Positions 12,290-58,715 of a stretch of 64,000 nt of DNA are shown here, piece by piece. The notes beneath the pieces were generated by a model. It made no database searches and had not been told where the DNA came from. It saw only the letters and a list, made by a program, of their open reading frames with translations. The stretch comes from Tetrahymena thermophila SB210 (Eukaryota; Ciliophora; Oligohymenophorea; Hymenostomatida; Tetrahymenidae), in contig NW_002476290.1 of the NCBI RefSeq assembly GCF_000189635.1, forward strand, positions 124,001 to 188,000, given 5' to 3'. Each line of letters starts with the position of its first letter. Position 1 is the stretch's first letter. A program made the position numbers and the translations under genes.

Positions 12290-13169
12290 TCAAAGATCCT
12301 TCTTTTCGTTAGAGAAGTACTTGATCTTTTAATCTTAATCAGGAATGATGGTTTTTTGACCAGGTTACCAGTTAGCAGGGCAAACTTCACCATGAGTATC
12401 AGTGTGTTAGAAGGCCTTGATTAATCTCAAAGTTTCTTCAACGCTTCTACCAACTAAAATAATTTTTTTAATTAAAAATATGTGTTATTAAATTAACTTC
12501 TATTTAACAAATCTATAAATAAATATTGAATCGATTTGATTTTTATTTCTTAAATGCTAATTGCTATCCATTTATTGATATTGGAAACTAAAAATCTATT
12601 TATATATATCTTTATATTATCAATTATTTACCGGGAGCATCGTTAATTTAAACAGTTCTGATGGTTCCCTTTCCATCAATAATGAAAAGACCTCTTAAAG
12701 CAGCACCATATAATTCGTCAAGTTCATCTTCAACGAGGACTCCATAAGCCTTTGAGATTTTCTTTGAAATATCTGCAAGGAGGGGAATCTTCAAGTTTCC
12801 AACACCACCTTCGGTTCTAGGAGTCTTAATCCAGGCCAAGTGAGTGAAGTGAGAGTCAGTGGAGATAGCAATAACATCGGCGTTAATTGCTTTGAATTAA
12901 TCAATAGCATCAGAGAAAGCAACCAATTCAGTGGGGCAAACATAGGTGAAATCGAAAGGATAGAAAACAATAACTAAGTATTTTCCAGCATATTGATTCA
13001 ATGATACAGTTTCGAACTTGCCATTAGGTTGAACAGCAATTGCAGAGAAGAAAGGAGCCTTTTGACGGGGTTGAGTAACCTTAGGAATGAATTAATACTT
13101 AGCAAGAGACTCTTCGCACAAAGCAACTGCTAAAATGACTGCTAAAACCAAAATAACCTTTTTATTCAT
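12290..13169 (-). CDS. typical 2-Cys peroxiredoxin with signal peptide
   Basis: Two exons: 13169-12632 and 12453-12290, with intron 12454-12631 and matching phase (1+2), giving 233 residues. [18 protein letters not shown] is a signal peptide, so the enzyme probably works in the ER or secretory pathway like Prx4. The peroxidatic Cys78 lies in [14 protein letters not shown] and the resolving Cys204 in HGEVCPANW. The enzyme reduces hydrogen peroxide and organic peroxides through an intersubunit disulfide. A GGVG loop and a C-terminal YF (225-226) correspond to the GG(L/V)G and YF motifs linked to sensitivity to overoxidation. Base composition is less AT-rich than its neighbours, and Gln is often CAA, as expected for a well-expressed gene. 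Confidence 0.95.
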
Positions 13170-14042
13170 TTTATATATTTCAAATGATCTTCTTATATTA
13201 TTAAATTATTTATTTAATTTGAAATTATATCTTATTTCCATCAAAAAAAGATCTTTATGAAGTATGCAAATCAATCTTCCTAATCTATTTTGAATTGATG
13301 AATAGATTTATAACTATATTATAATGAATAATCTTTCTTTAACATATTTACATGCAAACAATCAAAAAAAAAAACAACTAATATTTCTGTTATCAGATAC
13401 AAATATCTTTTCATTCATTCATTTTAATAAAATAATGGAAAATATTAGAAACATTAGATTTATTATTATTGTTATTATATTATAAAGAATTATATTTATC
13501 ACACCTTTTTCTTTAAAAATCAACTTTTCTTATTGCAATACGTGCAAAGATTTTATTCGAAATCAACATTATTTAAAAGCTAATAAAGTTTATATGCTTG
13601 TTTATTCATATGCTAAATCCAATATTTACTTTTTTAAATTTCTAATTAGTTAATTTTCCTATTACATGTTGAGTTTCATCACTTTAAACATCAAAATTAT
13701 GTGAAAAATTATGTGGATTAAATTTTTTAATATTTAAAGTGAATGAAGAATGAATCAATGGTATAATTTTTGCATGAAATTATTTAGACTTTTGAAAAAT
13801 ATTTTATCTCAAAAAGCAAAGAGAGAAAATTTCTCATTTTTATTAGTAAAAATATTGAATTCTTGATTTAAATATATAAAAATAACTATATAGGTAGGAT
13901 TAAATAAAATTGTAATTTTTTATTTAAAAACAAACAATTAAACAATTAAAACATTTTTAGATTTACTGAATAATTTTTTACAAACAATTCTATAAAAAAA
14001 CATTAAAGTAAGATATATAATAGCAAATATATTGCATAATTA
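13170..14042. other. gap with no recognised feature
   Basis: AT-rich spacer upstream of the peroxiredoxin gene and downstream of the VWA gene. No ORF or repeat worth calling. Confidence 0.5.
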
Positions 14043-17000
14043 TCATGGGGTTTCAAGCTCTGTGATATCAGATGAATTCAAATAACCTCCTTTAGTTAAG
14101 CAATAGATTTAATATTTTTTGAATTTTTTGAAAGGCCCAAATTTTTCTTTAACTACTAAAAGCTTTTCTTTGAGTTAATCAACTTATTTAGAAATCAAAT
14201 ACCATAAATACCACTACCTATCTTGTTTATATTAGGACATTTGTTCTAATTATATCTTGAAATCATTAATATTGTCATTTTCAGCTAATTAATCCATTTA
14301 ATCTTATAATTTTTTAGATATATCTGGGCAAGTAAAATAAAATTAACCTTTAATGTTTAATTTATGTTTAGATTTCGATGCCATTTCTTCTACATATGAA
14401 ACTTTATTTACTTATTCTTGCTTTTAAATTTCCTTTATTGCGTCTAAAACATTGTATTCTTATGAGTATGGATCAAAATATTTTTTCAAGCCAATACTTG
14501 ATCTTCTTACTTTATCTTATCCTTAAATAGTATTCTGAGCAAATAGGGCCTTCACTTAGTCTATATTATCAGCCATAACTAAAGTTATCATGTCTATCTT
14601 AGATTAAGTTATATTAATGGATTTATTTATGCTGTCTTATTCATTAAAACCTTCAAATAGGAATCTATAAATAAATATAAAATATTTAATTTAATACAAT
14701 TTATAAAATAATTGTTCAAAAATTAAAAAGCAAATGAGAAAAAAAATCATTTTTTTATAGTTTAAAATTGTCTATTAAATTTTCAATGAATCTTACCTGT
14801 AATAGTGAACGATTGAGAGGGTTGAGCTAAGGTTATTCAAGAATTCGTTGTTCATATTTGTAAATACAACATTATTTCCATCAAATAGCTAAATTAAACT
14901 TAATATTGGGAATTTCAAATAATATTCTGACATGTTTCTTCTTAATTATTCTTCAATTACATATCTAAAGAATGTTTTTATATCATCCTTTTTTATTTAG
15001 ATCCAATCAAGAGTTTTTGCAATGTAGAGCTTGGCTAAGAAAATTTCTATGTTCGTTATTTTTTCTCCCAGTCTTTGAGAAGCATCTTGCATAAATCCTT
15101 CATATTGCTTAATTATTTCTTCTCTTATTTTCAAAGCCTAGGAATTTTCAATCTATAATTGAACACTATCCTGCTCTTCTTCTTTGATAATTTGTGAGCA
15201 AGTTTAGAATATTAGGTCTATTTACTTAAGTCCGTACTTGGTAATACCATATTCAATAAGTTATCTGATGGTATGATTAAGTAGCATAAATGGAATTGTT
15301 CTCTTTTAAGCATGGTGATATCCTAAAGGATCCAAAGTAACCACCCAACCTATTAAACAAAAATATTAAATATAAAAGACTATTTATAGTACTATATTTA
15401 TTTCAAATAATTTTGATACTATTATTAATTTAAATGACATACCTAGAATGGGTTCAAGCCATAACTTAGCCATATTCCAGTGTTCCTTATGAATGTATAA
15501 AGGCATTGCTGCATTGATAACTTCTCTCATCATACCTTGCACTATGTTTCCTTACTGTTTATTGAATGAACCACTATTTTCGAGTGAGATATCTAGACTG
15601 TATTTAATGCAATCTATAAAACTTTTTGCACTTATTATACTTGGTTAGACTGCCTAATTAATAGAATTATTTTTAGAAACTATTGTATTGAATTTAAAAT
15701 ACTTTGATTTTGAGAGATTCTGGTCTGACTATTGCAAGCTCAGAACGAGTTACAGAGAATGTAACACATAGGCAGTCCTTGTTGAGGATAGACTCTGTTA
15801 TATCTTAGCAGGATAAGAAACAAACACCTATTTCTTAACTTAACTATGAGAGATCTTTAGATAATTACTATTCTTTAGATTAAAACTCTTGAAGGTATTT
15901 TTCTTTTAGTATCTCATAATCATTAAACTATTAAATACTAGCACCTTTTCTTTTTTCTAATCTCTTGGCAAAAAGTCTATTAGTTATAGTTGGATATGCT
16001 AATTAATTTAATAAAGCTATTTCGATAGTGCTAATTGTACTAGTTGAGAGCTTGGAAACAATATCTACTGCTTCTTTAATTCTAGTAGATAAAGTAGGGT
16101 TATTTTCATTAATTTTTTATCTTTGTAGACTGCTTAACTTAAATAGCTTGCTTATTGAACTTGAGTAAGCTGAGTTGATTTAATTTATTTGATTTGAAAA
16201 TTTCACAATTTATTCTTTTTCTATAGAAGTTCTTTTTTGATTTACATATTCTTTTAATTCCTAAATGATTAATTTGAGTTTCGTTTCCAAGTAGTTGTAC
16301 ATTTAATTTATTTATTCAAATAATTATTTAGAATCTCCTTCACTCATCTTAGAAATTCTTTTATCCTTTATATGGTGTGGAATCTCAATATTTGTAGTGT
16401 GGTTTAGATTAATAATTAATTAAAAATTGCTTTCTAATTCTTACACCAAATCTTTTGTTTTTGAATTATAGAATATTTTTTCTTTCAAATCATTATCAAT
16501 TAAAACACAATTTTTCTATTTTTGTGATACATCGATTGCACTCTTAAGCAAAGGTATTCTGCAAAGTTATCCATCTTTACGTTGCAAATATGCTTCAATA
16601 AAATTTTGTCCTATAATATCAACAATATTTTTGAAAGCACCCTCTATTTCGCTACTTTCCTTTATTATTTTTAAATAAAATAAATAAATATTATTATTTT
16701 TATGGTTACAAATTAACAATAAGTTCTATAAGTCAATATCATATAAATATTTTAAAAGTTTAAGTTGAGAATTATTCGACATCTTACTTTAATAAATTAG
16801 TAGGTGCTCTGAGTTGTCTAAAGTGAAATAATTTTATCTAAAATGACTGGATCATGTGAAGTTCCCATGCCTAAAGCATGAACCTCTACATTATTCACAA
16901 ATTTTTTTAAAACCTATTACAAGAATATAAAGGAGTCTTTTAAGTTTGTAGAGTCTTATCCGCTTTAAACTTATCCATCAGTCAAATAAACGATAACAAG

Positions 17001-17429
17001 TTCTTCATTTTGATTAGTAAATTTTTAACATATATCTCTGAGCTTATCAAAAGTAATGTGAAAAATAGTTCCACCATTTGCATTTATGTTTGAAATAAAT
17101 TATTCTACCTACTTGAGGCTTTTCAAATGCAGATTTTCTACATGATCTATTGATGTATTGAAGGTCATTAGGGAAATTTTAGAATGAGGTTATGTTTTTA
17201 TCACAAATTAAACTAACTCGTTGCATAGCTGTTTTGTTAATTGGATGTTAGTACCATCCATTGAGCCACTATTGTCAATCACAATTTAATAGTTTTTTTA
17301 ACGTGAGTTATTCTAAACTAGGGCAGTCTCATCCAATTTTAATTTTAAAGTAAAATCTATGAATTCATTTCCTTCAAATGATTCTACTTTAAATTAAGCT
17401 TTTGCTTATACACTTTATTAAGTTTCCAT
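14043..17429 (-). CDS. von Willebrand factor A (VWA) domain protein, 994 aa
   Basis: Five exons with consistent phases: 17429-16788, 16659-15703, 15653-15443, 15349-14797 and 14664-14043. The VWA domain starts near residue 45; the MIDAS metal site is DNSGSM (D52, S54, S56) and a later strand reads ELVIVYLTDG. A helical segment follows (about 250-450). Then comes a conserved middle module (SVTRSELAIVRPESLKIKA, SAKSFIDCIKY, PLYIHKEHWNMAKLWLEPIL, GWVVTLDPLGY) that recurs in large ciliate and slime-mould VWA proteins. The C-terminus is helical. There is no signal peptide or membrane segment, so it is probably cytosolic and acts as a metal-dependent protein-binding scaffold; the partner is unknown. 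The 49-nt intron 15654-15702 is needed to keep the conserved module in frame. Confidence 0.9.
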
Positions 17430-19020
17430 TTTATATGTAAAGATAGATATTTGTTATTTTAAGATACTATTTTGGTTTAATTATTTACAAATACAATAAA
17501 AAGGAAAGAATATGAATAATAACAAAATTTAAAGCCTCTATTAATAAAAAATATGGCATTAATAGTGTCTTTTTTTCGATCAAAAAATATCAGAAACGAA
17601 ATATATTTATTCTTCTATCCAATTTATTAAAGTTATAAATTAAATATATGAATATCTTTATTATAATAAAATAATCCTATTTATTAAACCTATTTACCTA
17701 TATTTTTTTACATCAAAATAATATAAACGAAATTGGCAAATATAAAAAATATTTCCAAATAGTATGGCTCAATAAACCTATTTAAAGTTATTGTGAAGCA
17801 GTTTTATTAAAATAATAATTTTTTTAATCATTAAATTAATTTAAAATTGTAATAAAAATCATTCTATTAAAAAATGTCTTTTGTATCTATTTTTTAATTC
17901 TATGCTATTTAACAAATTAATTTACATATTAGTTTATACAGTTAAACCTATTAAATTGACCATGAGAAATATTGGCCACCTCATCTTATATTTGTCATAT
18001 TTTTTGTCAACAGAGATAATAAAAATGAATGGGATCCCTAAAATCTTCTCCTTTTATAAATTGGTTTTATAAGATTTGAGCAAATAATTAGCCAAAAGAT
18101 AAAATTCAATTTTCCATCTACATTTTATTTCAGAGTAACTATAATTAACAATAGCATAAGTATATATGTACATTTCATAATGTAAACTTTTGTAAAATAT
18201 ATTATTTAGAATTAAAAAATAATTTAATAATATTTTCTCTAATTTTAGTAAAAATTCGAAAGATTTCTAATAAATTATAATTTAAATGATAAGTTAGTTA
18301 TTTTTAAAAATATTGAGGGTTTTAGATAGGTTACTGTAATTAAAATATTTAAAATTCATTACTTTTGTGGCAATATATTCAAATTAATTTAAAGATATTT
18401 TTTACTTTAAATTATAATTCACTATTGAAAACTAAATTATATTTAGATTGAGTTGGAGGGCTATGCTTAAAAATATTTTTTAAATGTGTGAAATATTTTA
18501 AATATTGCTAGCTCCAACAAAATATAATAAATTTTAAAGCAAACATATTTAATTAATTCATGTAAATATGAAAGTTATAAAAGATTAAGTTTTTTTTTTT
18601 AATGCTTATATAAAAATCATACTAATCTTTATATTGATTGATTTATAAATATCTTTTGGATGGATTTCTTAATTATGGTTATATTAATATCTTTTATATT
18701 TTTTAGGCTTAGAGAAAAAAGAATGTAAGCTAAATTTTAAAGCTTTATGGTTTAGCTTAAATTTCTGGTAATTTGCCACTTATATGGGAAAAAATAAGAT
18801 TATCGTGTTAAGCATTTACTGGCAAATCAGTCTTCAAAAAACCAAAGGTAAAAATGAATAGATTTTTCTTTTAGCTTGAAAAAAACTTAATTACATTTAA
18901 AGAAAAAAAATAAATTAATATCAAATAGCCTAAAAAAAATTATTGCAAGTTGAAAAGAAAAAAATCTTTATAAAGCATTAAGATTATTAAATTAGCTAAT
19001 TGAGAGAAATTAAAATTGAA
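17430..19020. other. divergent intergenic region
   Basis: This lies between the 5' ends of the VWA gene (-) and the large Pmp-like gene (+), so it should contain both promoters. A plus-strand frame from 17875 is open for more than 100 codons, but an opposite-strand frame over the same bases is equally open, so neither is called. No repeat is obvious. Confidence 0.5.
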
Positions 19021-43303: not shown

Positions 43304-46300
43304 TCATTAGAAATTTAAGACAACTAATCTTTTTGATTTAAGACACCTGCTTAATAATTGGAATCTTTATGATTCATTAATAGAAGAGCTAAAATTTTTA
43401 TAATAAATTTGTTTAAATTATCAAAACAGAATAAACTTTTTAAATTAAAAATTATTCTTTAAATTAATAAATAAAATAATATTAGTGGAATAAAAAAGAT
43501 AAAAAAATAAATCAAATAAAAGCTATTAAATAAATTCATGGAGCTTTTTTGTTTAATATTCATTTTTATAGTTTAAAATATCACAATCCAAAACAAATAA
43601 ACTGTTTTTACTTAATGTAAAGTTTCAAATTTGAGAGATTATTGCAATTTGCTAAAGCAGAACTTAAGCCTAATGCACCTATTGCACCAATTTGATTTCC
43701 ACTTTTTAAATATTGAAGAAAAAATATATCATTAAATATTTAATTAGAAGGAAAAAATGTAGAAATAATATGAAATAATAAGATTAATTAATTAATAATA
43801 AAAGAAAAAGTTGAAATATAATGAGCTAAATTAAAAAAGAAAGAACAAAAAAAAGCAAGCACAAAAAAAAAAAAAGAAAAAAGAATTTTATTGTTTTTAA
43901 TTAGTTTTTATAATTTAAAATATCTTAATCCAAAACAAATAAACTGTTTTTACTAAAGTTCAAGTATCAAATTTTAGAGATTAATGCAATTTGTTAAAGC
44001 AGGACCTAAGCCTGATGCACCTTCATCACCAATTTAATTGTTACTTTTTTAAATATTGAAGAAAAAATATATCATTCATTAAATAGTTAATTAGAAGGAA
44101 AAAATGAAGAAAAAATATGTTGTGTTTATAATTAGTTTTTATAATTTAAAATATCACAATCCAAAAAAAATAAACTGTTTTTACCCAAGGTGAATTGCCA
44201 AATTTGAGAGATTAATGCAATTTGATAAAGCAGAACCTAAGCCGCATGCACCGTTTGCACCAATTTCATTTCCACTTTTTAAATATTTAAATAAATAGTT
44301 AATTAGAAGGTAAAAATGAAGATAAAATATGAAATAGTAAGAATAATTAGTTAATAATAAAAGAGAAAATTGAAATTTAAAAAATAAGCTAAATTAACAA
44401 AGAAAAAACAAAAAAAAGCAAACACAATAAAAAGAAAAAGAAAAAAGAGCTTTTTTGTTTTAAATTAGTTTTTATAATTTAAAATATCACAATCCAAAAC
44501 AAATAAACTGTTTTTACTAAAGGTCAAGTGTCAAATTTGATAGATTAATGCATTTTCCTAAGCCAGAGCATAAGCCTGATGCACCTGCATCACCAATTTA
44601 ATTGGAACTTTTTAAATATTGAATAAAAAATATATCATAAAATAGTTAATTAGAAGGAAAAAATGAAGAAAAAATATGAAATAATAAGATTAATTAATAA
44701 ATAATGAAAATAAAATAATGAGCTAAACTAACAAAGAAAGAATAAAAAAAAGTAAACATAATAAAAAAAAAGAAAAAAGAGCTTTTTTGTAATTAGTTTT
44801 TATAATTTAAAAAATAACAATCCAAAAAAAATAAACTGTTTTTACTAAAGGTCAAGTTTCAAATTTGAGAGATTAACACAATTTGCTAAAGCAGAACCTA
44901 AGGCTGATGCACCCATTGCTCCAATTTAATTGTTACTTTTTAAATATTGAAGAAAATATATATCATTAAAGAGTTAATTAGAACTAAAAAATGAAGAAAA
45001 AATATGAAATAATAAGATTAATTAATTAATAATAAAAGAGAAAGTTGAAAATTAAATAATAAGCTAAATTAACAAAGAAAAAACATACACAATAAAAAGA
45101 TAAAGAAAAATTAGCTTTTTTGTTTTTAATTAGTTTTTATAATTTAAAATATCACAATCCAAAACTAATAAACTGTTTTTACTAAAGTTCAAGTGTCAAA
45201 TTTGAGAGATTAATGCAATTAGCTAAAGCAGGACCTAAGCCTGATACACCTTCATCACCAATTTAATTGCTACTTTTTTAAATATTGAAGTAAATATATA
45301 TCATTAAAAGTTAATTAGAAGGAAAAAATGAAGAAAAAATATGAAATAATAAGATTAATTAATTAATTGAAAAATGATGAGCTAAATTAACAAAGAAAGA
45401 ACAAAAAAAAAGCAAGCACAACAAAAGAAAAAGAAAAAAGAGTTTTTTGTTTTTAATTAGTTTTATTATTTTAAATATCACAATCCAAAACAAAGAAACT
45501 GTTTTTACTGAAAGTTAAGTGTCAAATTTGAGAGATTAATGCAATTTGCTAAAGCAGAGCCTAAGCTTGATGCACCCATAGCACCAATTTCATTTCCACT
45601 TTTTAAATATTGAAGAAAAAATATATCAATAAATAGTTAAATAGAAGGAAAAAATGAAGAAAAAATATGTAATAATAAGATTAATTTATTAATAATAAAA
45701 GAGAAAGTTGGAAATTAAAAAAAAGCTAAATTAACTAAGAAAAAACAAAATAAAAGCAAACACAATAAAAAGATAAAGAAAAATGAGCTTTTTTGTTTTA
45801 AATTAGTTTTTATAATTTAAAATATCACAATCCAAAACAAATAAACTGTTTTTACTCAAGTACAAGTGTCAAATTTGAGAGATTAATGCAATTTGCTAAA
45901 CCAGAACCTAATCCTGATGCACCTTCATCGTTAATTTTATTCCAGCTTTTTAAATATTGAATAAAAATATATCAATAAATAGTTAATTAGAAGGAAAAAA
46001 TAATGTAATAAGATTAATTAATTAATAATAAAAGAAAAAGTTTAAAATATAATGAAGAGCTAAATTAATTAACAAAGAAAGATCAAAAAAAAAGCAAAGA
46101 CAATAAAAAGAAAAAGAAAAAAGAGCTTTATTGTTTTTAATTAGTTTTTGTAATTTAAAATATCACAATCCAAAACAAATAAACTGTTTTTACTTAAGGT
46201 AAAGTTTCAAATTTGAGAGATTAATGCAATTTGCTAAAGCAGAACCTAAGGCAGATACACCCTTTGCACCAATTTCATTTCCACTTTTTAAATATTGAAG

Positions 46301-47843
46301 AAAATAAATATCATTAAAAGTTAATTAGAAGGAAAAAATGAAGAAAAAATATGAAATAATAAGATTAATTAATTAATAATAAAAGAAAAAATTGAAAAAT
46401 GATGAGCTAAATTAACAAAGAAAGAACAAAAAAAGCAAAAACAATTAAAAGAAAATGAAAAAAGAATTTTATTGTTTTTAATTAGTTTTTATAATTTAAA
46501 ATATCACAATCCAAAATAAATAAACTGTTTTTACCCAATTTCAAGTGTCAAATTTGATAGATTAATGCAATTAGCTAAAGCAGGACCTAAGCCTGATACA
46601 CCTTCATCACCAATTTAATTGTTACTTTTTTAAATATTGAAGAAAATATATATCATTAAAAGTTAATTATAAGGAAAAAATGAAGAAAAAATATGAAATA
46701 ATAAGATTAATTAATTAATAATAAAAGAAAAAGTGGAAAAATGATGAGCTAAATTAACAAAAAAAGAACAAAAAAAAAGCAAGCACAACAAAAGAAAAAA
46801 AGAAAAAAGAGCTTTTATGTTTATAATTAGTTTTTATAATTTAAAATATCACAATTCAAAAAAAATAAACTGTTTTTACATAAGGTTAAGTGCCAAATTG
46901 GAGAGATTAATGCAATTTGCTAAAGCAGAGCCTAAGCTTGATGCACCTATTGCACTAATTTCATTTCCACTTATTAATTATTGAAGAAAAAATAAATTAT
47001 AAATAGTTAATTAAAGGAATAAATGAAGAAAAAATATGAAATAATAAGATTTATTAATTAATAATAAAAGAAAAAGTTGAAATTTAAAAAATAAGCTAAA
47101 TTAACAAAGAAAAAACAAAAAAAAGCAAACACAATAAAAAGAAAAAGAAAAATGAGCTTTTTTGTTTTAAATTAGTTTTTATAATTTAAAATATCACAAT
47201 CCAAAACAAATAAACTGTTTTTACTTAAGGTCAAGTGTCAAATTTGATAGATTAATGCAATTAGTTAAAGTAGAACATAAGCCTGATGCACCTTTATCAC
47301 CAATTGAATTGTTACTTTTTAAATATTGAAGAAAAAAATATATCAATAAATAGTTAAAAAAAGAAGGAATAAATGAAGAAAAAATATGAAATAATAAGAT
47401 TAATTAATTAATAATAAAAGAAAAAGTTGAAAAATGATTAGCTAAATTAACAAAGAAAGAACAAAAAAAAAGCAAACACAATAAAAAGAAAAAGAAAAAA
47501 GAAATTTATTGTTTTTAGTTAGTTTTTATAATTAAAAATATCACAATCCAAAAAAATAAACTGTTTTTACAAAAGGTCAAGTGTCAAATTTGAGAGATTA
47601 ACACAATTTGCTAAAGCAGAACCTAAGGCAGATGCACCCATTGCTCCAATTTAATTGTTACTTTTTAAATATTGAAGAAAAAATAACTTTATTGTTTTAA
47701 TTATTTTTTTTAATTTAAAATATCGCAATCCAAAACAAATAAACTGTTTTTACCGAAGGTTAAGTGTCAAATTTGAGAGATTAATGCAATTTGCTAAAGC
47801 AGAACCTAAGTCTAATGCATTGATTGCACCAATTTTATTATTA
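43304..47843 (-). CDS. leucine-rich-repeat protein encoded by 14 tandem 90-nt exons (5' end unresolved)
   Basis: On the minus strand, 14 exons each encode one 30-residue LRR of ribonuclease-inhibitor type, for example GNEIGANGACGLGSALSNC followed by INLSNLAIHLG. Left ends are 43612, 43954, 44185, 44518, 44846, 45183, 45509, 45856, 46194, 46535, 46880, 47225, 47571 and 47754; every exon is exactly 90 nt and is entered and left in phase 2. Donors are GTAAAAACAG and acceptors end TTTAAAAAG or a close variant. The last exon, 43388-43304, completes the phase and ends FQLLSRCLKSKRLVVLNFQ then TGA. None of the 14 exons has a TGA or frameshift. A possible earlier exon near 48060-48115 reads VLYIDL and fits phase 2, but no start codon was found. 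The LRRs would form a curved protein-binding scaffold; the partner is unknown. Confidence 0.75.
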
Positions 47844-47880
47844 CTTTTTTAATATTGAAGAAAAAATATCAAATAATAAA
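43545..47880 (-). repeat. 14-copy tandem array of LRR exon plus intron units
   Basis: Donor-to-donor spacings are 342, 231, 333, 328, 337, 326, 347, 338, 341, 345, 345, 346 and 183 bp. Exon and intron are both conserved (aaactgtttttac, tatcacaatccaaaac, gttaattagaaggaaaaaat, aataataagattaatta, gctaaattaacaaagaaa). Units 1-5 resemble units 9-13 one by one, which suggests an eight-unit block duplication of about 2.6-2.7 kb. Shorter spacings (units 2-3, 13-14) come from intron deletions. Confidence 0.9.
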
Positions 47881-49126
47881 TAATTAATAATAAAAATGAA
47901 AATTTTGTTAAAATAGCTATAAAAATTTTGTTTTTGTAAAAATAAATAAATAATGATGATAATTTCTTTTATAAAAATTATTTATTTAAATAAATTAAAA
48001 TTAAATGTACAAAAATATTAATAATAATAAAAGTAATTTTTTTAATTAATTATACAGATCAATATAGAGGACCTAATGAGATAAAAGTGAAGAGCTTAAA
48101 AACTTTTTTTATTAAATAAAATAAATTTAAAGGATATTAATAAAAAAATTAATAATTACTTCTCCTAATTAGTTATATTTTTTAATCTATTATATCATTT
48201 ATTTTTTTTTTCAAAAATATTGAATAGAAGTTTATGAAATTTAATTAATTAATTATCAATGGATTAAAACAACAAATAAATATAATAATTAATTAATTAT
48301 CAAATATTAATTTATATATTTGGTTTTATGAAAAGATATCACAAAAAAATTAATTTAACATTCACTATTTAAATTTGATATTTGTATTTAAAACTGACAA
48401 ATAAAAATATATATAGTAGGAATTAGAGATGGACAGTTATTTATTTAGTCATATTTGAAAAAAATCTAGTAGTTAATGTTCTTAAATATTATAAGAATAA
48501 TGTTTATCAGTAGATTTTTCTGTTTTAGCTCTGTAATTTTAGGAATATTTATAATATCTCTAATTATAGCAAGATACCATACAAAAATTTCATGGTTAAC
48601 ATGCTACTTATTATGAAATATATTTTTTATTTGTTTATTAAAAATTCTGAATTTTATTTATATTATATAATAGAATTATATTAATGAACAATTTAATTTA
48701 TTATAATTTAAAAATAAATAATTTTTTTTACATAAAATGGTTTTTTTTTTAGAAGTGCTAATATATTTAAGCTTAAAAATTGAGGAACTAAAGTATAAAT
48801 TCAAATATTTATTTAAGATAAGTAAAGATATAGAAATTTATATTCATAAGTATTACTTTTTATAATGTTTTTAATTTTAAGTTTTTATATTTATATAAGT
48901 AAAACAAAAACTTGTTTTATTTTTTTTTTATTATCTGCCACTTAGAAAAATAATTACTATCGAAACATAATATATATTCGTAGTAAGTGAAGAGTGGTTA
49001 ATTGTTAAGGTAGTAATTCTGTAGTAAAAATAATTAAAAAATGAGCAGAATGATTTATTTTTAATTAATATTTTTTTGTTTTTTGTAATTTCAATTTGAT
49101 TTGCTTTCATTAAGTAATTGATTCAT
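47844..49126. other. gap holding the unresolved 5' part of the LRR gene
   Basis: It contains the candidate LRR exon near 48060-48115 (-). Short plus-strand ORFs near 48478 and 48737 have no recognisable domain and are not called. The remainder is A/T-rich. Confidence 0.4.
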
Positions 49127-52100
49127 TCATTAGTGTTACTATTATTAGGTTAAAGAAAGTGAGAAATTGGCATTGTTAGTAAAATCAGCAGTTTTAAGTT
49201 TTTTTCTGAAATTTACTATTTTCAATTACTTTTAGTCGTCTGTTGTTTCTAAATCACATTAATACTTGTTAATAGGAGGAGATGAAACGGCTTGTTCATT
49301 TGATATCATATTAGTATTAAAGTCAGTATTTGTGTATAAAGACAATAAACCTTTATTTTAGTTGGAGTAAGCAGAAAAAGAACTTTGTTTTTTCCTGAGA
49401 ATGGGCATTTCTGAAGAACCATAGTCTTCTTCTAAATCCATAAAATTTTGAGCTCTTTCAGTTGCTTAGCGTCTTTTTATAATAGGACTACTGGTTACAG
49501 ATGATTGTGAAATTGATTTTGAAGATTCTCTTTCTACACTTTAGTCTTCTATGATACAGTCTTGCTCATATTATTAAGTGTTCATATTTACTAGATCAGA
49601 TAATTTTGGAGATTATTGTTAAGAATCTAAAAAGTATTTTCCATATTTTTTCCTATTTTATATTAAGAAAGATTAATACTAGTTATAAAAATGTATAAAT
49701 AATTTTTTATTACATGAAGAATATGAAAAACGAAGGCTCAAGTTTAAATGAAGAGTGAGAGCTATTAGATAATGAGTCAGAGTCATTATCATTTAATCCT
49801 TTTATAGGAGTGCACTGAGCTGAAAAGAAAGGAGTCTTTTTGCTTTCTAAGGATGGAGAAGCTATTGGTACAACAATATTATGCCTTTCAGAGTTCTTTT
49901 TTATCAATTTTGGGGATAATTATTTTTTTTAGTTTTGATTTTCTCCTTGTTGTTAATTTGATAGATTTTTTATTTTAGAAAAGTCTGACTCTATATCAAT
50001 ATTTTCTCCAACAAACTAAAAATTATTAAAATAATTATTTTATGAATTATTTGAGTTGTTTTGGTTTCCATTTCCTTAATTTGCAAGCTTTTAATTTTCA
50101 GGTGTAGAAAAGGTGGAATTTTGATCATTATTGCTACTTATTGCGGAATTTGATAAATTATTTGGCCTGTTTGTTGCTTATTCTGAAATTTCTTCTTCAT
50201 CTTCACCGTCTTATAAATTGCTTTCTTCAACACTATTAGATGATATCTTTGATACTCTACTATTAGTCTGAATATCAGTGGATTTTGATAATTATCGATT
50301 GCTTATCTAAGTTTCACTTTCTCTTTGAGTTTTTGTTTGATTATCAATTTTTAGCTTAGATTAAATAATTCCACAAGGATTATTGGAAAAGCTTTCATTT
50401 TTTCCCTCAATTTTACTCTCTACTGAATTCTAGCTTGTATTACTTTGCTAGTCATTAAAATCAGAATTAGCTTCATGGTACTTCTTAAACAAAGAACCGA
50501 AATGCATTTGCTTTGAATTTAGGCCAAAATTGCTTTATTTTGATAGATTCTAACCAAATTTTGTATGGTCTCCTTAGTTTGAATCAAGAGAAAAGCTATT
50601 AATATCTGCTATTTGATGAGGATCTTAAGGCTTTAAATTTTATTATTAGCCAGGAGAAGCATTCATAAGAGGGCTATTTATGTTGAGATTATCAAAAGAG
50701 AAAGGTAAGAGTGAAGCCATTGGAGATCCCTATGACATTGGACTAGCGCAATCGATATGTTAGTTGATGTTATCGCAAGCAGATAGAAGTTAGATAAATA
50801 TTTATATTTTTTTAAGTTGTTCTTCCTATTGCTGTATTTGCTCCTCTGATAGGTTTTTATTTTGCTCTTTTAATAAAAAAATATTTAAGTAAAACAATAT
50901 TTTTAATTAAAATAATTCATTATTTACTTTAGGCTTCTAAGTTTTACTGACAAGTCTGTTATAATAGTTTATAGTAATGGAGCCACTCTTTTGCATCTAT
51001 TTTTTAAATGAGAAATTCAATACCCAAAATGATAAACAAAAAAATATTTTACCTTTTTATTTACTTTATTGAGGGACAATTTCTTCCAATTAATTTTAAT
51101 TTTGTAAATCATTTTCACCTTCTCCGTCATCTGAGGCAAAATCTTATATAAAATTGATAAATTAATAATCTTTAAAATTTATTATTTTATATGCTAAATA
51201 AATTGTGTTTATGATAGATAATTAATATGTTATTTATCTAAAGAAAATCTAGCTTTTGGGTGATTTATAATTTTAATTCAAGGATTATACTAGCTGCGTT
51301 AAGAGTTAAATTTTTTATTAATTAAAAATTCTATTTAATAAATCCACAATTCTAATCAATTAAATTAAGCTGAAAGGGAGAGAGTAAAAAAAAGAGGAAA
51401 AAAAAACAAAAAATTTGCTTTCATTCATGCTAATTTGTTTTTTTTTAAATTTTTGTATTTTTTTTATCAATTTAAAATGAAAATTTATTTTTTACCACAG
51501 CTATAGTTGCTTTGCGTGCTTTGTTGTCTCTTTCTCATTTATGGGAAGGAATCCTCTGATTGTAGATTTCCATTTTTGCCATTATTTCCAGATTTTGAGT
51601 TACTTTTTGCATTTTCTCTTTAGATTTTGTTGAAGAACTTTTAAGCATGAGAACGAATTTAAGCTCCTGAACGTGTTCCTACATATTCTTCAACCTTTTT
51701 CCAATTTTTTCCATACATTCCCAAACCCTTTACAAAGCGTAGGTGCTCTTCTCTAGTCCAACGCCCTGTGTTAGATCCATTAGGATTTTAGATTGTATTG
51801 TTGTAATTGATTGATTTTACTGGTTAATTGACTGAGTTTTAAGTGGCTGAAGGACTTTTATTAATAGTGCTATTTGCTGCATTATCGCTATTATTTGCAC
51901 TAACATTGCTATTAGGGTTTTAAGAAAAATTAGATTTTTAAATAGAGATATTAGATTAAGAATTCTGCTCAGAGAAAGACTCGATGATACTTCTACTGCT
52001 TGGTGTGGTTAATTGATTTTATAAATTTTAAAAGATCATATTTTGAGCAGAAGAAGAGTAATTAAAGGATGGTTGGGCTGTTTTGCTCATTGTGTTTGCT

Positions 52101-52567
52101 TGTGCAGTATTATTGAAGGCATTTGATATAGGATTAGATTCAGTAAGTAAGTTTATTTACTTATTTAAATGATTGATGCCTTAAGGCTATTAAGTGATTT
52201 CAATATTCATTTAATTAGGAGTACTCTATTAAGTTAAGGCATTGTTAAATAGAGCAGGGTTACCAGCTGATAATTGAGCACTGAGAGCTACTAAATCAGA
52301 AAGTTAGATTTATTATTGTTAGATTTGCAATTATTACTAATGAAGGTAGAGATTAAGTCTTTCTTGTAGCTCTTAAGATTAAGGACTCTATAACTACTAT
52401 GATTACTGCTAGCAGTTAAGCAATGATATAATTTACTGCTATTACTGAGTCAATCCAGTTTGAAATAGATTGTTTGTGTGTATCCGATTAGTAGCGAGAG
52501 AGTTTTCAGGAATATAAAAATCTTTTAATATCTAAGCGATATCAATTTGGTTATTTTAGGGGAGCAT
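49127..52567 (-). CDS. SHAQKF-type Myb DNA-binding protein, 969 aa
   Basis: Five exons in matching phase: 52567-51496, 51142-51053, 50996-50928, 50866-49714 and 49652-49127. The single Myb/SANT repeat (about 269-318) reads RWTREEHLRFVKGLGMYGKN, then WKKVEEYVGTRS and IRSHAQKFFNKIQ. It has the three spaced aromatic residues and the SHAQK(Y/F)F signature (306-312) of one-repeat Myb transcription factors of plants, slime moulds and ciliates. It should bind DNA in the nucleus. The flanks are Gln/Asn/Ser-rich (many TAA/TAG Gln codons) with acidic patches (DDGEGENDL, GEDEEEISE), typical of activation or disordered regions. A helical stretch (EEQIQQQEEQLKKI) may be a short coiled coil. An in-frame TGA upstream supports the chosen ATG. 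Confidence 0.92.
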
Positions 52568-55500
52568 CAATAGCGTTTAGAGTAATGAGAGTGAAGAAAT
52601 GTTAAATTTAAGAGATTATATGTATCAGAAGATTTATATCAGGAAATAGAATCAATCAACGGGAACTTAGTTCTGTGTTTTATTGTGTTTTAAGTAGTTT
52701 GGCTTTGTTTAATGACTAGATTATGCAAATGGAGGAAAAAGAAAGTGATGATGTTTGTAATTTATTGTTATAGATTTATGAGTAATATTATAGTTTTAGT
52801 AAGGAAACGATATGGATCTATCGACGTATCCCTCTTTTTATGTATCTGTTTTCTAATTTCTTAGTTTTTATCTTTTTTTTGTTTTATTATTTTTTATTAT
52901 TTTTGTTTGCTTTTATTGATTATTAATCATTGATAGATTATTCTTCCTTCTACTTTTTAATTACTTCTAGTATTAGAATTATAATTTCCTATCTTCTACA
53001 TAGAAGAAAATTTTAATAAATTTTATAGTAGGAGTAGTAAAAAAGAAAGAATCTATCTATCTTTGCCTAATTTACTTGTGAACCAACCTTTCCTCGTGAA
53101 TCCTCCTTCTATTTTAACAATATCAAAATTGTTTATACATTAGTGAGTGAATGAATGAATTATTAATTTCCATTTATCCTCACATAAAAAATATAATTTA
53201 TTTTTACATTAGTCATCTATACTTAACTTCTTTCTTCTTGTATCTCCAAAAACTAATAGTTTTGATTTTATATCAGATAAATTTTTATTTTAATATAGGT
53301 AATCTAATAATAATCTGAGGTTATAAAAGGGGAAGCTAAGCTGGAAGGAAGTTCAATCCAACTGAAAGACTCAAAAATTTAATTTTACTAAGATAATTAT
53401 TATATGCTTATTTTTTTTGTTTAAATAAAAAAAGAATCATAAAATATGAATATTACTAATTTTTTTTTGAATTTATAAATGAGGTACACCATCAATATTC
53501 TTATTATATCATTAGCAATATAATCCTTTATAATTTTATCGAAAGATTTAACTTTTAAGCAATAAATTGTTTTTAAATTTAATTTATATATCATTATTTT
53601 TGGTATAATTATATATTTCAGATTTAAAAATTTTTGAAGGGAATCTCTTCAAAAAGTCATTAATAATTAATTAGTAGAAGTTTTACGAATTTATAAAATA
53701 AAATTGATAGAGTTTTAGACCAGTTAATTCATGGTTTTTATTTTGGAATTATTCCTTTCCTGTTGTTTAATAAATTATTAAGATTCTCAGCAAATCAATC
53801 AATCAATCAAATCGCTCTCAAAAATTAATCTTTTGTAATAAGATAATGTTATTTAATTAATTAATCTCATATCTAAGATTGTTTATTCACTCTTTGATGA
53901 AATAAATTTTCATTTGATATCCTTGATTGGATTTCTTTCAATATCTAAAAAATTTGCTCTATCTAAACAAAATTAAAAAATTGTATTCGTCGTCTCAATA
54001 AAAAAGGCTATCTTCAAGAAATAAATTTGATATATAAATTCTCAACCAATAATCAACTATTGCCAAAATAATTAAATTATCCTATAATGAATCTAGCTAT
54101 TATATCTAATGTTCATTTTTTTAAAACTAAACTCTCATTAAATTTCTCATAAATACAATACTTATTTTTGAGTTTCAGATAGTTCTCTTATAATAATATA
54201 AATTCCAATTATTTTTTGTGAAACTAAATACCTAGAACGATTTCTGACAAATATTTTTTATGAAAACAGAAGTCTAAAGATTAACTAAAAATATTCAGCC
54301 CCTTCTATTAATTTAAAAATATAATAATTCTAATCAATAACTAGCAAAAAATATGAACTGTTTTGCTAAATATTAAAATTCTATAAAATTACTTACTATG
54401 ATTTTTAATGAGTATACGCTTATATAATCAGAGATGTTAATATATTTGATTTGCGAGTTTTTCAACAATAATTTGATCAATAAAAAATATATCATATAGA
54501 GAAAATTTATTAGTACTCTTATCTTATTATATAGAAACTTTTACATCGAAGGGGAAAAAAACGACAATATAAATGTAATAGATTTTAAAATTTATTTTCC
54601 TTGAATTATTATTTTAATATTATATATCTCAATATAGACTAAGATATTGAATAATATTTAAGACAAATTTTATTTATTTAAATTTTTTATAAATTATAAA
54701 TCTAAGAAAAAGATAAATTTTATCATCATAGATTTTTCATACTTTATTTAATTTATTATTGTTAAAGAATAGAGAGATGTATGTATCTAATGTATTTAAA
54801 AATCATCTCTTTTAAAAATACTAAATGATGTTGCTTTAAAAACGCAAGATATAAACATAGTAAAAATATAATAAAGAGAAGCTTAACTTTAACTCATAAC
54901 TTTTTAAAAAAATTTTAAGTTGATAACTATTATATACTTTTAAAAAAATAAATTAAGAAACAAAAAGTAGTTTTGAAAAATTTATAATATTTAATTAAGA
55001 AAAGGCATTCAGTAAGGTGGCTATGAGGCTGAATTCAATTTTATTTAAAAAAAAATGTAATTAAAAGTTAATTATCTATTTTTCAATTTAGATTAAAACA
55101 TTTGTTTTTTTAAAAAAAAAAATTTCTTATGTCTGAGTTTGCTTAAATTGTGTTAAAAAAATTGAATTTTTCAAAATATTTATCTTCATTATAATATGTA
55201 TTTATCTTTTTATTTAAAAAATATTATTTATTTTAATTAAAATCTTAGACTTTAAAAAATTTAATGTTTTTTGAATTATTTTAGCAAGTTTTCTAAAAAT
55301 ATTTGGATTTTAAAGTAACAGTTAGTAAGATTTATAACAAGGAGTAAAACAAAGCTTTTGAATATTTTTAATTAATTTATTTAAAATATTTTTTTTGCTA
55401 AATTTAAAATATTTTGAAATAAATAAAGAAAAGAATACTTAGAATTTAAATAATTTAATATTTATTAAACTAAAATACAAATTTCCTCAGAATATTTTGA

Positions 55501-56026: not shown

Positions 56027-58715
56027 TCAGAAGTAATGCTCAAGAACTCTTATGTTTTATATATTATTAATCTAGTTAATTTTTAATTCTTTTAATTGAT
56101 TAAATAATTAATTGTTTTAGTTGACATCATTGTTTTAAACTTATTGAAGATTGTTCAGATTTTATTAAAGATTTGAATTTTTAAGTAATTATTATGAAGT
56201 TTAAATTAAAGTATTAAAATTTATTTAATTTTCACATGAAATTGATTTCTTTATATTTTTAGAGTCCATATCGTTTTATTTATTGTCTGATCCCTATAAG
56301 GAATTGTTCTCATATGTCAGTTTTCTTATTTTTTTAAATGAAGAAGAAGATACTTGTTATTATTGTTGTTATTATTATTATTGAAATCCGAGTAAATTAT
56401 TGAAAATTTATTGTTTGTTGTTATTCAAATTAGTTCTATCGCTGAATGGATTAGGATAGACTTGGTTTTAATTTTATTAAATTAAATTTTAAAATAAGGT
56501 TTAAGTATTATTGTTAATATTATTGTTATTTGAAGAAGATAAGCAAGCAGAAAAACTTCTTTTGCAAGTGGGTGGAGTTGGTGTAATGTCATCACACTCA
56601 TCTAGCTTAGGTTAGATTATTGTCAATGTGCGTTTTAATATAGGTGTCTTTAAGCTACTAGTGTTCTATGAGCTAAAGCCTTAATGTAAGCCTTTTTCGC
56701 CAGAAAGAGGGATGTTTTCATCATTAATTATTTGCTTCTATTTTTTAGCTGTAGTAAAGTCACCTAAATTGCTTGTACTTTTTTAAGAAGATTAGAGACA
56801 TTTATAATTACTATTGTTGTTCATTTTTGTGTTAGATGACATTTAACTCAAAGAGTTATTTTAATTAATTTAATTATTTATTTTTAGAACCTTTTCTGGT
56901 GATTCTAATAAAGTTTATTATAAGTTAGTCTAATTTTCTTCTTGCTATTTATTTTATGTGTTATTTGTATTCTTACTAACAAAATTAGTAATAACATTTT
57001 ATAGGCATTTTAACATAAGATTTCCAATTAAATTATTATTGCTACTTTACTATTATTCTTCTTGTTAAATTAAATTATTTTAATTGTTATTATTATTGAT
57101 GTTATTAATCAAGCTGCTGAGATTACTAACTAAATTCTACTAGATTGGGCGTGATAAAATTTATAATTAAGATAACAATGATAAAGGAGTGTTGGAAGAG
57201 TTATTATTTTACTAAGGAGCTTCCTAGTTTTGGCTTTTCATATTTTTTTGAATTGTTTGCAATAATTAACTCAAGTTTTATGTAATATTTGAATTATTTA
57301 TATTATTATTTAAGCTACTTTATTATATTTGTTACTATTTTTAGTTTTATTCAAGTAGCAATCTTTCTTTTTCTCTTTATTCTTTGAGTTGTTGTTAAAT
57401 AATAAAAGATTTTTTAAGTTACTACTTTTACTAGCCTGTTGATGAATCAATCTTGCTGCTATTTTTATCATTTGAGAATCTCTTTTTGCTTAACTTAGGC
57501 TCTGTAAAGCTATTTTATTAGCTCATTTATTGAGATTGATTTAAGCTATCTTCTTCACAGTTTTATTCTTCATCACCACTTTTCTTTTCTCTCATAATTT
57601 TGTAGGCAAAGGAATCGAGACCTACAATTCCTATCCATTCAAATGCAGGTTTCTTTGTTTCTATAAGGGAAGTCTTTTTGATTAACCCTAAGCTCTTAAA
57701 TACGTTGGCAATATCATAGAGTCTTCTAATCTATTTTAAATATAATTTTATTTAATTAATATAATTTAAAGAAAATAAATCAAAAGGCAACATATTTAAA
57801 AATAAAAAATAAAGTTCTACTTTTGTTTTAATTTTATGATCGTCTATTTGCTTAGATGAAAGCTTTCTTGCTGCTTCTTCTAGAGTCATGGTGCTCTTCC
57901 AGTGGAGGAAGAGTTTAAGAAAGCCAATAGAAAGCATTTCAAGAGACTTCTCTCTTTTCTATGGTTCTTGAGTTAGTTCTTGCTCTTCTTTCTTTGTTAA
58001 GGATTTTTGGTCGAACTATTTGAAATTTAAATAGATAATTTTAATTTCGAATTTATCTATTAAATTCTGAAATGAAAAAATAAACACCAAATTAATTGAA
58101 TAAAAAGATAGTTAATAAGTTCGTTTCAAATTTGGAAAAATTGCGCAATTATTTGAAAATTTTATAAAAATTAATTTTTAATTCTTCTATCTATCTATCA
58201 AACAAGATACTTTATTTATTTTAAAGAGAAAAACAAAATTCTAAAATAAATTCTAAGCAATTTTAAAAGTAAACAAAATAAAGTTAATTCTTACTTGAGT
58301 TATAGTTTCATAAATTTTTTGGAAGCCATTCCATTTATAGTTGTTCTTTCCTTTGCGGGAGACTAGCTTTAAGCTTTCAAGAATGTTGATAATGTCATAA
58401 ATTCTTCTTCTTTCAACTCCTGAATATGTTTAGAAATGATATTAAGCAAAAAATATATTTATAATCAAATGTTTAATAAATACCTAATTAGTTAGTAATT
58501 TTATCCAAGCTCAACATAGATTCTTCCTTGTCTAAGAAGAGAGATAAGAATTTCTTTGATAATTCTTCTAAGCTCTTTTCTCTGCGACTGTAATTCAATA
58601 TTTCTCTCTTTAATATTTGAGTACCCTATCCTTACTATCCATTTTGAGCTAATTTATTAGAACCTATCTAGTTTTTCTTTTTGGACATGTAGCCATTTTA
58701 TTTATCTTAGATCAT
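56027..58715 (-). CDS. atypical E2F transcription factor with two DNA-binding domains
   Basis: Four exons in phase (58715-58484, 58419-58295, 58066-57821, 57730-56027) give 768 residues. The first winged-helix domain (about 44-115) runs [17 protein letters not shown] to [14 protein letters not shown] (81-94). The second (about 156-245) runs [17 protein letters not shown] to [17 protein letters not shown] (202-218). Both keep the RR.YDI.NV/IL recognition-helix signature. Two E2F domains in tandem, with no dimerisation or marked-box segment seen after them, match the atypical E2F7/8 (plant DEL) class, which binds DNA without DP and usually represses S-phase genes. The rest is a Gln/Asn/Ser-rich disordered tail ending RVLEHYF. 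The stop of the upstream acidic gene is only 189 bp from this start, so the promoter is compact or extends into that gene. Confidence 0.92.

Follow-up and report, generated by a model that had tools for sequence, protein, structure and literature searches.

A 64,000-nucleotide (nt) window of the Tetrahymena thermophila SB210 genome (contig NW_002476290.1, positions 124,001 to 188,000; coordinates below count from the first base of the window) carries a leucine-rich repeat (LRR) gene on the minus strand, spanning 48198 to 43304 in 16 exons (a 5′ exon, 14 LRR exons, and a terminal exon). Each repeat unit brings its own intron, a built-in yardstick for exon change. Measured against that yardstick, codons on the presumed binding face of the repeat changed far faster than introns in units pooled from the gene family. 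These data suggest that the gene probably belongs to a recognition-type LRR repertoire, in which the framework would be homogenized by recombination and the binding face would be under strong diversifying selection.

The 14 LRR exons (47843 to 47754 down to 43701 to 43612) were each bounded by AG and GTA and measured exactly 90 nt, and all 14 were followed by the donor GTAAAAAC. The phase-2 frame was open across all of them (phase 2-2; TGA is the sole stop under genetic code table 6) and spliced on to the terminal TGA; neither of the other two frames was open across the 14 exons. The coding features are as follows, all on the minus strand.

48056 to 48198: 5′ coding exon, 143 nt; ATG at 48198, phase-2 end at 48056, donor GTATAATT from 48055
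47844 to 48055: first intron, 212 nt
47754 to 47843: LRR exon 1, 90 nt, NNKIGAINALDLGSALANCINLSNLTLNL
47571 to 47660: LRR exon 2, 90 nt, A type
47225 to 47314: LRR exon 3, 90 nt, D type
46880 to 46969: LRR exon 4, 90 nt, A type
46535 to 46624: LRR exon 5, 90 nt, D type
46194 to 46283: LRR exon 6, 90 nt, A type
45856 to 45945: LRR exon 7, 90 nt, D type
45509 to 45598: LRR exon 8, 90 nt, A type
45183 to 45272: LRR exon 9, 90 nt, D type
44846 to 44935: LRR exon 10, 90 nt, A type, 97% identity with exon 2
44518 to 44607: LRR exon 11, 90 nt, D type
44185 to 44274: LRR exon 12, 90 nt, A type
43954 to 44043: LRR exon 13, 90 nt, D type
43612 to 43701: LRR exon 14, 90 nt, A type
43304 to 43388: terminal coding exon, SSINESQRFQLLSRCLKSKRLVVLNFQ, then TGA, with the last stop base at 43304

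An earlier note on this DNA had described 14 exons of exactly 90 nt, in phase 2-2, free of TGA and separated by homologous introns, and this description held for every unit (the 11 full-length introns were 91.2% identical). Its point that units of this length in phase 2-2 may be added or removed with the frame intact was likewise borne out. The interval it gave, 43304 to 47843, is right at the lower end, where the TGA stop finishes, and falls short at the upper end, where it misses the 5′ exon (48198 to 48056).

Comparable arrays were found across the genome (101 Mb, 445 contigs searched). A 28-base exon-donor motif occurred in 1,165 copies (640 + 525), compared to none for the reversed control, and one exon-intron-exon unit gave at least 176 matches (40 of 2,029 candidates scored), with identities elsewhere in the genome of up to 86 to 93%. 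The 26-residue query from the terminal exon returned 47 matches at E ≤ 0.001, self included. A genome search with Pfam PF00560 returned 0 matches, as it did in 14 control genomes, and so carries no information. From elsewhere in the genome we pooled 220 exons, requiring the pattern AG-90-GT and an identity of 62% or more with the consensus of the window units; none contained a TGA in the phase-2 frame, compared to 187 and 183 in the other two frames. In a length-free nhmmer scan of the window and 12 loci (E ≤ 1e-5; 147 matches, 2 of them cut by a locus end), 142 of the 145 uncut matches were exactly 90 nt long and the remaining three differed by −3, +3, and −9; none of the 145 contained a TGA, and 7 of the 142 lacked an AG acceptor. 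Given the absence of in-frame TGA and the retention of length at 90 nt or multiples of three, these sequences indicate that the family arrays are genes under constraint and not decayed repeats.

The architecture is already known. Xiong et al. (2019; PMC6564038) described arrays whose exons are exactly 90 bp long, more than 96% of them flanked by phase-2 introns at either end, among thousands of young genes. Introns were about 257 bp long in T. thermophila, and the legend of one figure notes RNA-Seq evidence for these arrays in a single gene. The window gene resembles that family in its 90-bp exons, phase-2 introns, tandem exon-intron units at the DNA level, intron length, and many copies. Introns in our family sample were most often 250 to 259 nt long (81 of 184), like those of T. 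thermophila and unlike those of T. malaccensis (~232; PMC6564038). By all tested features, the window gene is a predicted protein-coding, macronuclear gene that belongs to this 90-bp-exon (group III-like) LRR family.

Exons diverged more than introns. In the window, mean identity was 91.2% for the 11 full-length introns and 81.6% for the 14 exons; by pairwise alignment, divergence was 0.178 for exons versus 0.082 for introns (ratio 2.16), and exons exceeded introns in 52 of 55 unit pairs. The earlier note had looked to exon-versus-intron divergence for signs of purifying selection; the two were not equal, the exons being the more divergent because they combine strongly conserved codons with hypervariable ones. 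The multi-locus set comprised 157 units with full introns under 34 locus labels, several of which are parts of single arrays. In sets of at least 4 full-intron units (19 labels, equal to 16 genomic regions; 15 smaller sets were left out), mean exon divergence exceeded mean intron divergence in 19/19 (ratio 1.18 to 8.39; 362/388 pairs). When 9,000 of 12,246 possible unit pairs were drawn for comparison across loci, 47 of those sampled had introns less than 2% apart. In these 47, introns and same-residue third bases each differed by 0.012, compared to 0.378 for positions 1 and 2 of codons 26, 28, 1, and 3 and 0.426 for the two bases that close the exon.

Judged from sequence, one exon with its adjoining bases is one 30-residue ribonuclease-inhibitor-like LRR. 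We take T26-L27-x28-L29-x30-x1-N2-x3-I4 of the window units to be the xxLxLxxNxL strand and turn of the LRR consensus, with the x residues presumably pointing toward the concave side and codons 6 and 7 in the following beta-alpha loop. Codon 30 is a split junction codon, made of the two last bases of one exon and the first of the next, with 17 residue types in the pool. We defined the LRR face as codons 26, 28, 30, 1, and 3 and compared 19 disjoint unit pairs in which each of the two flanking introns differed by no more than 3%; these come from pooled family units, not necessarily those of the window, and 12 of the 19 lie within one region. Differences amounted to 174/8,455 at introns (0.0206), 10/405 at silent framework third bases (0.0247), 105/285 at the face (0.368), and 100/1,425 in the rest of the exon, giving a face-to-intron ratio of 17.9 (bootstrap 13.6 to 24.0). 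Related units had been collected either because they resembled the window or because they carried a donor motif in which parts of codons 25 to 29 are fixed (C1 loci). The pair test was unchanged without the C1 loci; the 465 pairs of that analysis represent 14 regions. Among 30 circular shifts, the face mask ranked first at 0.368, ahead of 0.274 for the next and a median of 0.107. By codon, differences were highest at codons 1 (0.63), 7 (0.56), 30 (0.53), 28 (0.51), and 6 (0.40), with codons 11 and 29 at 0.11.

The same positions stood out in further comparisons. In 55 pairs whose two flanking introns each differed by 2% or less, 21 of the 90 nt carried 460 of 567 exon differences, this 21-nt set (codons 1, 3, 6, 7, 26, 28, and 30) having been picked after the data were viewed. 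Across 29 codons, the window exons and the 220 pooled exons had matching variability profiles (Spearman 0.89). On a tree of flanking introns from 219 units, intron columns underwent a mean of 13.7 changes (maximum 54) and positions 1 and 2 of ten framework codons a mean of 3.2, compared to 63 to 105 at exon bases 2 to 4, 18 to 22, 83, 85, 89, and 90. Two candidate sources of the face differences were rejected: an A-specific mutator signature, given that the spectrum of young-pair differences is not confined to changes of A (AG 459, AT 334, GT 202, AC 189, CT 170, CG 88), and wholesale exon swaps from distant units, given that framework silent sites stay alike. The last two exon bases before the invariant donor were among the most variable, although donor-side exon ends are usually constrained.

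Our interpretation draws on counts over pairs, on parsimony counts, and on a simple model of codon change. Recombination between units, by unequal crossing over or conversion, would keep introns and framework alike and shift the number of units, while selection for new binding specificities would keep altering the face codons; the resulting protein would most likely be a non-catalytic recognition solenoid. We prefer this combination of selection and homogenization because silent framework sites track the introns whereas residue-changing sites do not, and because the two kinds of site separate within codon 28. There, the first base is saturated (0.63 to 0.74 in young pairs versus 0.70 in random pairs) and the silent T/C third base is not (0.09 to 0.21 versus 0.45). 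A codon model in which residue changes are favored about 100-fold predicts 0.60 to 0.67 and 0.10 to 0.18, respectively.

Nevertheless, several results weigh against this interpretation. The earlier note had proposed dN/dS (nonsynonymous over synonymous divergence) as a check on the 14 exons; the whole-exon NG86 value was 1.07, with dN < dS in 42 of 91 pairs. Within the window, 15.2% of 873 comparisons at four-fold silent sites showed a difference, more than at introns. The face mask derives from the LRR consensus but was set after the window codon table had been viewed; two of its codons, 3 and 26, were raised only slightly (0.09 each), and codons 6 and 7, among the most variable (0.40 and 0.56), fall outside it. 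Framework third bases evolved more slowly than introns on the intron tree (7.4 versus 13.7 changes per column), so the introns may not be a neutral clock. The implied excess of residue changes, about 100 at codon 28 and more than 300 at codon 1, is very large for selection alone. In addition, the ratio of nonsynonymous to synonymous substitution (Ka/Ks) of young LRR genes between species was below 1 (median ~0.4) and was read as relaxed purifying selection (PMC6564038).

Codon 1 fits selection alone less well. Its T/C third-base difference (0.39 to 0.56) is at the random level (0.44), whereas even a 300-fold excess predicts just 0.27 to 0.37, implying either that the intron clock is too young, as under concerted evolution, or that a targeted process contributes. 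Such a process, whether mutator activity, copying, or templated conversion over short tracts, might rewrite codons 1, 6 to 7, 28, and 30 as whole triplets and spare the bases next to them. Consistent with this, triplets changed whole between units of identical introns, third and first bases of codon 1 accumulated nearly equal parsimony changes (94 versus 97), and the third base of codon 28 accumulated 68, compared to the framework-third mean of 7.4. At introns at most 2% apart, T/C third bases differed in 9/16 comparisons at codon 1 and 7/51 at codon 28; of the 17 other tabulated codons, 16 showed no such difference and codon 5 showed 8/55. However, a base-blind mutator would not leave silent T/C sites unsaturated beside a saturated first base, as at codon 28, where selection at about 100-fold reproduces both values. 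We consider codon-targeted rewriting quite unlikely, and would give equally little weight to its corollary, a germline diversity generator acting on the LRR exons of a very large recognition repertoire through a dedicated process and not selection alone.

The younger-clock alternative holds that old exon variants persist under selection while conversion homogenizes introns and framework, such that the exons would be far older than the intron clock suggests and would not call for an exceptional rate. Face divergence indeed did not climb with intron divergence (0.387, 0.375, 0.374, 0.341, and 0.371 over five bins; random pairs 0.43), exon variants common to several genes have been described, via ectopic recombination or conversion (PMC6564038), and the WD repeats of Podospora are a published precedent (PMC1805685). 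However, silent framework sites lying just a few bases away from these codons were as uniform as introns, or more so; conversion tracts would need to stop within a few bases on either side, and we regard this explanation as unlikely. That the array serves chiefly alternative splicing, with skipping of 90-nt modules yielding many LRR isoforms, is a possibility that the earlier note had raised. All exons are symmetric, making skipping frame-safe, and functional skipping of an LRR exon occurs in human NLRP3 (PMC6642158). In contrast, the identical donors single out no exon for skipping, and neither "alternative splicing" nor "exon skipping" occurs (0 and 0) in the text of Xiong et al. (PMC6564038); we consider this reading highly improbable. 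Selection on a homogenized framework remains our preferred explanation.

The predicted protein is about 495 residues long (47 + 1 junction + 447). In its 447-residue part, LRR families were the only ones above the Pfam cut-off, with LRR_6 matching at an E of 9.9e-26 (88.2 bits versus a cut-off of 23.4). No NACHT, NB-ARC, or HET domain was among the Pfam matches of this part, the 48-residue N-terminal piece lying outside the query. Matches in the PDB at E ≤ 0.01 comprised 12 distinct sequences of LRR proteins, with names including ciliary DRC5, radial-spoke LRR proteins, "kinase domain protein," and, among the weaker matches, RanGAP and NLRX1.

The array itself bears traces of its growth. Codon 6 alternates strictly between A (GCA or GCT) and D (GAT) across units 2 to 14 (43612 to 47660; string AADADADADADADA), for which the chance given composition is 1 in 1,716. 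Exons were more alike at even distances (permutation, 66/100,000 for units 2 to 14; 170/100,000 for units 1 to 14), and intron likeness at even distances was hardly raised (1,227/20,000). The highest identities fell at distances of 4 and 8 units for both exons (85.6% and 87.4%) and introns (92.2% and 92.3%), making growth by even-sized blocks, as in a higher-order repeat, plausible but not proven. Block duplication also left traces in units 2 and 10 (97% identical) and 5 and 9 (94%). These traces agree with the earlier note's proposal of a generator driven by unequal crossing over, as does the mechanism published for the family (unequal crossing over, possibly with retrotransposition; PMC6564038); under that proposal, copy number would change.

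Variation in plant NLR LRRs is concentrated at the x residues of xxLxLxx, resembling the variable x residues here, although plant NLRs lack equal-exon arrays and have another domain architecture. LRR exons of human NLRP genes encode two LRRs each. These human exons share strict modularity with the window gene, but alternative splicing has been demonstrated there (NLRP3 skips one LRR exon; PMC6642158). A like evolutionary pattern, in another fold, is seen in the HNWD genes of Podospora anserina (het-d, het-e), in which near-identical WD repeats under concerted evolution show diversifying selection at four surface codons (PMC1805685). Both keep a nearly uniform framework around a handful of surface codons that are hypervariable; unlike the LRR gene, HNWD genes encode a WD40 fold in an NLR domain architecture and reside in a fungus with repeat-induced point mutation (RIP).

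Selection in the Xiong family was assessed by gene-wide Ka/Ks (purifying or relaxed; PMC6564038); the excess of exon over intron divergence at LRR-face codons comes from the present analysis. The terms "positive selection," "hypervariable," and "concave" are absent from the main text of that paper, and no prior report of the contrast between face codons and introns was among the matches listed in the literature searched (subscription papers and outside preprints not covered). Face codons changing far faster than introns therefore appear to be the new part. Xiong et al. suggested bacterial recognition or environmental response as the function (PMC6564038). If face codons do outpace the adjoining intron tens of times, these genes would be candidates for a ciliate system of self/non-self, prey, or pathogen recognition.

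Paralogous loci also inform the 5′ exon. Its translation, QKKFLSSSLLSHQVLYIDL, had tblastn matches at L038 (89%) and L032 (84%), among the matches listed, and the exon could be aligned from the ATG onward in four other loci (L038, L032, L029, and L036). Compared to all four, the window exon has an in-frame 3-nt deficit just before the donor, at 48056.

The 13 introns between LRR exons measured 93, 256, 255, 255, 251, 248, 257, 236, 247, 238, 243, 141, and 252 nt, 11 of them within 236 to 257 nt. Read-through meets a TGA in 10 of the 13, and intron retention as a common product was rejected on that ground. Introns 1 (47661 to 47753, 93 nt) and 13 (43702 to 43953, 252 nt) contain no TGA and have lengths divisible by three, so these two might be retained silently. 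The introns after exon 1 (47661 to 47753) and after exon 14 (43389 to 43611) share the start GTAAAAACAG.

Elsewhere in the genome, three arrays (L033, L034, and L040, on contigs C241, C423, and C118) lie no more than a few hundred bases from a contig end, reflecting either assembly breaks within repeats or chromosome ends. Other genes in the window, all on the minus strand, include a peroxiredoxin-like gene (12438 to 13361; AhpC-TSA domain, E 1.2e-34), a von Willebrand factor A domain gene (16485 to 17579; VWA_2, E 5.4e-11), a Myb-domain gene (51467 to 52624; E 4e-13), and an E2F/DP-family gene (56027 to 58510; E 1.6e-29).

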